Positions 24,728 to 40,386 of a DNA stretch of 64,000 nt are shown in pieces; position 1 is the first letter of the stretch; each line of letters starts with the position of its first letter. The notes below the pieces were generated by a model. That model was not told where the DNA came from, did not search any database, and saw nothing but the letters and a program-made list of their open reading frames with translations. The DNA is taken from positions 1-64,000 of the forward strand of contig QCUA01000003.1 of assembly GCA_003210915.1 (NCBI GenBank), in the 5' to 3' direction. The position numbers and the translations under genes were made by a program. Source of the DNA: Prochlorococcus sp. AG-676-L21. GTDB taxonomy: Bacteria > Cyanobacteriota > Cyanobacteriia > PCC-6307 > Cyanobiaceae.

Positions 24728-26433
24728 AGTAAAAAATATTTTTGAGCCATCGGCACTTCTTCGAGAGGTTCACAAGAAAGTAATACTCCATCAGCAAATA
24801 CTTCATAAGTTTGTGGATCAACTGTGATATTTGGTAATTTATTATTCAATTTGAGATCTGATTTATTAATAGATCTTGTGTCTTCTACAGCCAAACATTT
24901 TTTTTGTAAAGAAAGTTTGTTAGGAATATCAAGTTCGATTGCATTTTTACTCAAAAAAGTGAACGAACTTTTTAAAAGTGATTGTCCATAATTCGCAAAC
25001 ATGGGTCTACCATGAACAGGTCCTGGCGTTGGAATTGAAGCATTTGCATCACCCATCTGAGACCAAACTATAGACCCCCCCTTGACGACTAGTTCTGGCT
25101 TAACACCAAAAAAGGAAGGTTTCCACAAAACCAAATCCGCTATTTTACCCTTTTCTATAGAACCAACAAACCTATTTATTCCATGAGCAATAGCTGGATT
25201 AATAGTAACTTTAGAGATATATCTTTTAACTCTATAGTTATCATTTCTATTAGAATCTTCAGGTAAAGGGCCTCTTTGCACTTTCATTTTATGCGCGGTT
25301 TGAAAAGTTCTTGTAATTACTTCACCAACTCGTCCCATAGCCTGTGAATCACTTGCAATAATTGAAAAAGCACCTATATCATGCAAAATATCTTCGGCAG
25401 CTATTGTCTCCCTCCTAATTCTTGACTCTGCAAATGCAATATCTTCTGGAATTTTAGAATCTAAATGATGACAGACCATTAACATATCAAGATGTTCTTC
25501 TAGAGTATTTTTGGTGTAAGGCCTAGTTGGATTAGTACTACTTGGTAAGACATTATTTTCTCCACAAATTTTAATAATATCTGGAGCGTGGCCACCTCCT
25601 GCTCCTTCAGTATGAAAAGTATGAATAGTTCTACCTGCAATCGCATTTATAGTATCTTCAACAAAACCTGCTTCATTCAAAGTATCAGTATGAATACATA
25701 CTTGAACGTCTAGATTATCTGCAACATTAAGACATGAATTTATCGTTGATGGAGTTGTACCCCAGTCTTCATGTAATTTTAAACCACAAGCACCAGCGTT
25801 TACTTGTTCAAAAAGATTTGTCTCATTAGATGAATTACCCTTCCCAAAAAAACCTAAATTCATAGGGAATGCTTCTGCAGATTGAAGCATACGTGATATA
25901 TGAAAAGCACCTGGAGTGCAGGTAGTAGCATTTGTTCCGGTAGCTGGCCCTGTTCCACCTCCTAACATAGTTGTCACGCCAGAAGCTAATGAAGTTTCTA
26001 TTTGTTGAGGACAAATAAAATGTATATGTGTATCTATAGATCCTGCAGTAAGAATGTGTCCTTCACCAGCTATTACTTCAGTTGAAGAGCCAATAATAAT
26101 ATTTATATTATCTTGTATATCGGGATTCCCAGCTTTACCAATTTCATAAATTTTTCCATCTTTCAATCCGACATCAGCTTTTACAATTCCCCACCAATCA
26201 ACTATTAAGGCATTAGTTATTACTGTATCCACAGCTCCATCATCTCTAGTTACTTGAGACTGGCCCATCCCATCTCTGATAACCTTTCCTCCTCCAAATT
26301 TTACTTCATCTCCATAAGTTGTGAAATCCTTTTCTACTTCAATTATTAATTCTGTATCTGCAAGTCTTACTCTATCTCCTCTTGTAGGTCCATATGTTTG
26401 AGCATAAGTTTTTCTATTAATTTTATAAGACAT
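24724..26433 (-). CDS. ureC: Urease subunit alpha
   Basis: [16 protein letters not shown]; active site [36 protein letters not shown]. Confidence 0.98.
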
Positions 26434-38609: not shown

Positions 38610-39400
38610 AAATAAAAAAATATTTAAAAATTTATTCATTATTTTTAAGTACTTCTATAGCCTCAGAATTGGAATATAAGACTAACGTAATAATTGACTT
38701 TATTACTGCAATTTTAAGCTTAGTAGGGAGCGTATTTTTATTAACTATATTTTTCCAAAATACTGATAATATCGGAGGATGGAATTTTGAACAAGCCTTA
38801 ATTATTCAAGGAATATATACAATTTTAAATGGAATTACTAATACATGGTTCAATCCAAATCTTACCGAAATAGTAAAACACATAAGAGAAGGAACCTTAG
38901 ATTTTGTTCTTCTTAAACCCTTAGATAGTCAATTTTTTATTTCCTTAAATAAAATAGCACCGTCTGGATTTTTAGAAATAATATTAGGTTTTGCTCTACT
39001 ATTTTATTGCATAGGTATTAATCAAATAAATATAAACTTAAGTTTTTTATTATTATGTCTTACAACATTGTTTTGTTCTATTGTAATTCTATATAGCTTA
39101 TGGTTTTTAATCTCAACAACAACAATTTGGTTTGTAAAAACATGGAATGCGACAGAAGTCTTACGTTCTTTTCTTTATATAGGAAGATTTCCTTTAAATT
39201 CATTTTCATTCTCATTAAGGATATTCTTTAGTATTTTTGTTCCAATTGCATTCATAACGACAATTCCCTCTGAAGTTTTCCTAGGAATTGCACTACTATG
39301 GGAAATATTATTAGAAATAATAGTTGCTGTAATATTTTTTTTAGTTTCAAGAAGATTTTGGTTATTTGCCCTAAAGTATTACACTTCAGCTTCTAGCTAA
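38606..39400 (+). CDS. ABC-2 type permease, second subunit
   Basis: ATGA overlap with the preceding gene favours ATG 38606 (MKIKKYLKIYSLF) over the upstream ATG 38531; GTLDFVLLKPLDSQF. Confidence 0.88.
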   Translation: MKIKKYLKIYSLFLSTSIASELEYKTNVIIDFITAILSLVGSVFLLTIFFQNTDNIGGWNFEQALIIQGIYTILNGITNTWFNPNLTEIVKHIREGTLDFVLLKPLDSQFFISLNKIAPSGFLEIILGFALLFYCIGINQININLSFLLLCLTTLFCSIVILYSLWFLISTTTIWFVKTWNATEVLRSFLYIGRFPLNSFSFSLRIFFSIFVPIAFITTIPSEVFLGIALLWEILLEIIVAVIFFLVSRRFWLFALKYYTSASS

Positions 39401-39900: not shown

Positions 39901-40068
39901 ATTTTAATTATTAATAACTTTTACCGATAATACATTGTATCGAATCTTTAACAAGCACGTTTAGTTAATAAATTTCTTAATCTATAACTTAATTACTTGA
40001 ATAAAAAATTTAGAATATTACAAAATATTATCATAATTAAAAGACTATTTAAAAATCTCACAAAAAAG

Positions 40069-40193
40069 CACTACCTGTAGTGTGTTAATTGAAATTATAC
40101 TCCACTACCTATGGGGGGTTGCAATTTTATTAAAATTGGTTTAAAAATAAGATTCCCCATCACCCGGTCTCACTAATGTGAGGCCTTTTTTTT
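40069..40193 (+). ncRNA. Candidate structured small RNA
   Basis: CACTAC-CT-GTAGTG hairpin (40069-40082), second ACTACCT (40104-40110) before a G6 run, CAATTTT-ATT-AAAATTG hairpin (122-138), terminal hairpin with T8; no ORF. Confidence 0.5.
40166..40193 (+). terminator. Rho-independent terminator
   Basis: GGTCTCAC-TAAT-GTGAGGCC followed by TTTTTTTT. Confidence 0.9.
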
Positions 40194-40302
40194 ACTTCTA
40201 ATAACCTTAGAAATTATAAAAAATTAAATTTGGTCTGAAAGTATTTTCTAATACAACATCAATCCAGGAAGATAATTAAAATTTTAAAAAATTGTTCTTA
40301 AA

Positions 40303-40386
40303 ATGAACCTCTCACTATTAACAGCTACAGCAGCTGTTGGGCTTTTTTTAACTACAACAGTTGTTCTAACATTTGCCATAAGTTAA
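40303..40386 (+). CDS. Very small hydrophobic peptide, 27 aa
   Basis: MNLSLLTATAAVGLFLTTTVVLTFAIS*; one TM helix; similar in size to cyanobacterial photosystem/cytochrome small subunits. Confidence 0.5.
   Translation: MNLSLLTATAAVGLFLTTTVVLTFAIS

Follow-up and report, generated by a model that had tools for sequence, protein, structure and literature searches.

The window analysed here, a stretch of 64,000 nucleotides from a high-light (HL) Prochlorococcus, likely carries at positions 40069-40193 a small RNA (sRNA) gene in which two operator-like sites and a sigma70-type promoter would produce an RNA of about 40 nt, here called A1, that represses translation of the sigma factor gene rpoD4, with a second small RNA, B, found at other loci, as its probable decoy. 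The source assembly comprises 1,366,184 bases in 72 contigs and is 81% complete. It lacks rpoD4, so the sRNA of the window was tested against the rpoD4 genes of its relatives.

The 144-nt stretch that holds the element folds better than 200 of 200 dinucleotide shuffles (z -2.84), which together with conservation across the genus argues that the element is not there by chance. With positions 40040-40200 as the blastn query it was found in 202 of 266 congeneric genomes, usually as a single copy, and in 80 of the 87 near-complete congeners; family-wide it is present in Prochlorococcus and marine Synechococcus. The seed motif YCCCCATCACCYRG occurs in 2-11 copies per genome in 10 of 10 picocyanobacterial genomes, and the reversed pattern had 0 matches in all of them. 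MED4, recognised among the relatives because Yfr2-type matches fall on the published places of Yfr2, Yfr4, Yfr3 and Yfr5, has its copy at 936,683-936,837 (+). A search of the locus against Rfam 15 gave no family at its gathering threshold (best 20.6 bits against a gathering score of 81), and the RF01701 (Yfr2/Cyano-1) covariance model had no match there. The ACTCCTCACAC motif is absent from the sequence, which agrees with the initial annotation in setting this element apart from Yfr1.

That annotation had described a structured sRNA transcribed from about 40050, and its sequence features are all present. The CACTAC/GTAGTG inverted repeat forms the palindrome CACTACCTGTAGTG at 40069-40082, CACTACC recurs at 40103-40109 ahead of GGGGGG at 40113-40118, an A/T inverted repeat lies at about 40122-40138, and the strong intrinsic terminator GGTCTCAC-TAAT-GTGAGGCC-T8, a conserved hairpin, occupies 40166-40193 (+). 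No plus-strand gene ends near this terminator: the ABC permease gene stops at 39400, and both intervening open reading frames are on the minus strand. The conserved promoter-like and terminator sequences suggest a separate sRNA gene with its own terminator, and the structured-RNA reading stands for the terminator itself, whereas the upstream "RNA structure" is probably promoter DNA and the predicted start moves from about 40050 to about 40153-40155.

The CACTAC palindrome and its repeat look like two operator-like sites in DNA. Site 1 (40069-40082) is the palindrome, centred at about -78 from the predicted start, and the exact palindrome is nearly unique to the element's locus in six HL genomes; site 2 (CACTACCTATGGGG, HL consensus CACTACAGATAGGG) lies at 40103-40116 with its centre at about -44. 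Across an alignment of 69 distinct HL loci the two sites are 34 bp apart without exception (69/69), the bases between them are free to vary, and both sites are altered jointly in low-light (LL) Prochlorococcus and Synechococcus, for instance to CACCAGATATGGTG. This is the pattern expected of paired protein-binding sites. In NrdR-box promoters, paired boxes of about 16 bp stand in phase ahead of the genes for ribonucleotide reductase, and NrdR is encoded. NrdR may be the operator protein: the operator-like sites resemble the consensus of the NrdR box, although a spacing of 34 bp is unusual for NrdR.

Downstream of site 2 lie a -35 element, TTGCAA (40119-40124, +), and a -10 element, TAAAAA (40142-40147, +), 17 nt apart, and we predict that TTGCAA-N17-TAAAAA is a sigma70-type promoter. 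The -10 hexamer sits 7 nt before CCCC and does not vary in the HL alignment; in this HL form it lacks the final T. Its counterparts are TAGAAA in LL strains, TATGTT and CATATT at Synechococcus copies of the element, and the better boxes CATTAT and AATAAT in other HL copies. In the 40 non-HL loci used for promoter comparison, the -10 score reaches its maximum 7 nt 5′ of the seed, and TTG is found at the matching spacing in 34 loci (26 at offset 7 and 8 at offset 6) as against 0-3 at other offsets. The position of the -35 and -10 elements relative to the seed is fixed, and the spacer bases vary. Based on this distance, the 5′ end would lie at about 40153-40155, near CCCCATCACC and with about 3 nt of uncertainty, giving an RNA of about 40 nt that consists of seed and terminator; we infer both the transcription of A1 and its exact 5′ end from the sequence. 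Transcription starts at U or C are less usual than those at a purine, and the predicted start of A1 falls on U/C.

An HLR1-like direct repeat, ATTACAAA-N2-ATTATC, was also seen at about 40019-40036; it is kept in loci close to the window's, is absent from other HL loci, and is a possible RpaB site. Near the loci of A and B RNAs in LL Prochlorococcus and Synechococcus there are DnaA-box-like sequences (TTATCCACA/TTTTCCACA), at times as inverted pairs (L113, L122, L124, L182, L183, L101 and L192).

A longer structured sRNA of about 85-140 nt, starting at about 40056 or about 40109, in which the seed stays buried by a GGGG/CCCC stem until a partner frees it, would fit the good fold of the 144-nt stretch, the invariance of both GGGG and CCCC, and the presence of TATACT in the window's spacer. 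We nevertheless consider this unlikely given the pattern of substitutions. Over the 69 loci the terminator covaries, with 4 of its 8 pairs changed on both sides and 92.9% paired, whereas compensation in the G/C and A/T stems is unconvincing, a single such cell having turned up among 17 pairs, and unpaired cells are frequent (pairing fails at column 48 in 52 of 69 loci and at column 59 in 43). The regions proposed as stems behave like promoter DNA, in that the spacing is fixed and the spacers are free. In several Synechococcus copies GGGG is missing while the seed, the -10 element and the terminator are retained, and the spacer TATACT is unconserved. The expectation that the hairpins would be kept or compensated in relatives was thus borne out for the terminator, and RNA stems formed by CACTAC/GTAGTG, GGGG/CCCC and the A/T hairpin were rejected for want of convincing compensation. 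A Yfr19-like RNA of about 82 nt, with TATACT at 40097-40102 as its -10 element, was also rejected, as the hexamer is unconserved and the MED4 coordinates differ.

The predicted sRNA A1 (40153-40193, +) would comprise UUCCCCAUCACCCGG, the terminator hairpin and U8. Its 5′ seed, UUCCCCAUCACC (= TTCCCCATCACC; 40153-40164, +), is invariant in 69 of 69 distinct HL loci. The pairing sequence had originally been sought in ACUACCU. We rejected this seed on two grounds, as its second copy is variable (alignment column 42 has A, C, G or T) and it lies 5′ of the predicted transcription start; ACUACC(U) reads as operator-like DNA, and the invariant seed is elsewhere. The accompanying idea of antisense pairing at ribosome-binding sites survives in part: a translation start is probably targeted, but in one specific mRNA, that of rpoD4, rather than at generic purine-rich sites. 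The seed is complementary to an mRNA encoded elsewhere and the pairing site is itself constrained, as predicted for an antisense RNA.

The stretch UCCCCAUCACCC (40154-40165, +) is complementary at every position to GGGUGAUGGGGA; the latter extends across the rpoD4 start codon and perfectly complements the seed in 15 of 15 matched genomes. Besides the sRNA loci, the 9-mer GGTGATGGG, the complement of the seed, has one site at the same place in 7 of 7 complete HL genomes tested, and this site is the start of a gene whose product begins MGILLESG... and is an RpoD-like sigma factor of cyanobacteria. The two PMM1697/rpoD4 qPCR primers that have been published are found in this gene at the correct distance apart (positions in the paper are shifted by 60 nt); the target gene is the group-2 sigma factor rpoD4, PMM1697 of MED4. 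The other GGTGATGGG sites in MED4 and in genome G022 lie within or opposite coding regions, and no other conserved start-codon site was seen in these two. Transcript levels of rpoD4 follow a daily cycle with a daytime peak (PMC2663038), rise on nitrogen depletion (PMC2758279) and fall under UV (PMC2921402).

The 14-mer GGGTGATGGGGATC lies on the rpoD4 start codon in all 15 genomes in which the pattern search could be matched to the protein search, and further loci that were read likewise have it at the rpoD4 start. It occurs in 108 of 116 HL genomes, nearly always once, with 0 matches for the reversed control. The idea that the start motif is common to cyanobacteria at large was rejected: beyond the family it appears in about 14 of some 210 genomes, in a chance-like manner, and none of the 9 matched loci read there is at a sigma-factor start. 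In marine Synechococcus a membrane-like protein of 126 aa, belonging to no Pfam family, likewise begins at GGGTGATGGGGATC (L285, L353, L354). Its gene is a possible second target, being preceded at about 117 nt, in the same orientation, by an sRNA-like copy whose seed is intact in L285.

Constraint at the rpoD4 start extends to the choice of codons. Among 17 orthologues 213 residues are invariant and only 3 of these use a single codon throughout, namely codons 2 (GGG), 3 (ATC) and 5 (CTG), all within the start hairpin; GGG and ATC count among the minority codons of the HL genes. The 17 orthologues were gathered via the start motif, so that their carrying it is in part a product of how they were chosen, and the independent check is a protein search, the best match of which fell on the start-motif gene in every genome except the window's own. 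The computed duplex between the seed and the rpoD4 start has an energy of -29.3 kcal/mol. As background, 61 start regions in the window averaged -5.96 (sd 3.03) and the best of them reached -13.7; target scoring also drew on genome-wide pattern searches. Complementarity by itself is no proof of regulation, and the 14-nt start motif could be conserved in its own right, serving rpoD4 translation rather than sRNA pairing.

In the mechanism that we propose, the two operator-like sites (40069-40082 and 40103-40116) and the promoter (40119-40147) would drive an RNA of about 40 nt made up of a single-stranded 5′ seed, UUCCCCAUCACCC, the terminator and little else. The seed would pair with the rpoD4 translation start, GGGUG-AUG-GGG-AUC. 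This start region adopts, in the computed fold, a hairpin with a GGGG loop, and the CCCC at the 5′ end of the RNA probably nucleates on that loop. The duplex would then span -5 to +7 about the start codon and block ribosome entry. At other loci, a divergent B would mimic the rpoD4 start and titrate the sRNA, relieving repression.

Further copies of the sRNA are arranged divergently with small RNA B at a distance of 110-204 nt, and this holds for LL strains, Synechococcus, MED4 and HLII strains. In B, a hairpin containing invariant GGTGATGGGGAT is followed by a terminator, and 5 of the 10 pairs in the hairpin stem are changed on both sides. The rpoD4 start has the same predicted fold; since the B hairpin repeats that start, B resembles a copy of the target, and it is probably a decoy that titrates sRNA A. 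B is intact in MED4 and HLII strains (L189; L271-L278), and some HL genomes have no clear B. A and B are perfectly complementary, adjacent in many loci, and form a duplex of -30.9 kcal/mol, as would suit an A/B antisense pair in which B is the main partner and regulator and the likeness to rpoD4 a by-product. We do not think this probable, because the seed is invariant even though B is missing beside the window locus and the only B found in the genome, next to its other sRNA copy (contig 25, L002:615-671), is degenerate; moreover, the codon-level constraint is located in rpoD4. Yfr2-type (Cyano-1) genes were observed from a few hundred to about 1100 nt from sRNA copies (L108, L112, L116, L183, L200). 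Rfam Cyano-1 was rejected as the complementary partner, as it is the Yfr2 family and only nearby in some loci.

Repression as the direction of control is what we infer from the position of the pairing site. The same pairing might instead activate rpoD4 by opening the hairpin into which its start region folds, but this is quite unlikely, as the start codon and the bases on either side of it would be covered by the duplex, and the hairpin core already leaves an AGGAGG-like sequence further upstream exposed. That the element is a premature-termination leader (attenuator) of the mRNA for a 27-aa peptide, whose open reading frame follows 110 nt further along the same strand, is scarcely credible: in about 44 of the 69 HL loci no peptide can be recognised, yet the sRNA is kept, the peptide has its own NtcA-type promoter, and other sRNA copies are at unrelated loci.

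With the peptide recognisable in about 25 of 69 HL loci and the sRNA present in 69 of 69, the sRNA is independent of the peptide. The peptide itself, MNLSLLTATAAVGLFLTTTVVLTFAIS (40303-40386, +), is single-helix-like and stands just 3′ of a canonical NtcA-type promoter, GTA-N8-TAC-N22-TAAAAT (40241-40282). Peptide and NtcA-type box occur together in 20 of 69 HL loci, which suggests a candidate nitrogen-stress microprotein. Elsewhere in the window, Rfam gave a match to RF02514 (5_ureB_sRNA) at 25992-26276 (+).

Among known systems, Yfr1/Yfr10 with the partner Yfr2 (Cyano-1, RF01701) likewise features a very short sRNA (Yfr1 is 54 nt) composed of seed and terminator, and Yfr2 is a second sRNA family with a complementary motif for which crosstalk has been suggested (PMC6778093). 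The Yfr1 seed ACUCCUCACAC and its targets differ from those of A1, and a study that tested PMM1697 ruled it out as a target of Yfr1 (PMC3142192). Yfr8-Yfr21 of MED4 are also HL Prochlorococcus sRNAs in intergenic stretches, most of them verified by Northern blot (PMC2518516, Table 1); when the MED4 copy of our element (936.68-936.84 kb, +) was compared with their coordinates in that table, no entry matched. Hfq is absent from most Prochlorococcus strains (PMC2518516), so dependence on Hfq is not to be assumed for A1. Yfr103 has several copies in CC9605 and is also found in LL Prochlorococcus and marine Synechococcus, with HL strains unlisted; it is reported to be 290-328 nt long and has an imperfect palindrome from -29 to -58, centred at -43.5 (PMC5069720). 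By its published description, this palindrome sits where site 2 of A1 does, whereas A1 is predicted to be only about 40 nt long.

Bacterial sRNA repressors are known to cover start codons, and sponge RNAs that resemble the target titrate such sRNAs. The proposed system likewise combines an antisense RNA at a start codon with a decoy, the difference being that the decoy here would be the divergent neighbouring gene. By extension, marine picocyanobacteria may share a three-RNA switch consisting of a repressor of about 40 nt, the rpoD4 start hairpin and a multi-copy divergent decoy, of which the abundant Yfr103 transcripts are maybe part; we offer this broader picture tentatively, as plausible though not quite probable. 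No description of A1 or of sRNA control of rpoD4 was found in the literature covered, which included the 2008 table of MED4 sRNAs; the 2014 MED4 transcriptome may already list a transcript here.

Prochlorococcus and marine Synechococcus are dominant phototrophs of the ocean and have few protein regulators. Most Prochlorococcus sRNAs are without known targets, and the A1 family has a predicted one that is clear and testable; pairing with the sRNA also gives a ready explanation for the freezing of the rpoD4 start at the nucleotide level. If our reading is correct, part of the control of sigma-factor output in these organisms would be exerted at translation, through RNAs short enough that they might escape standard screens.
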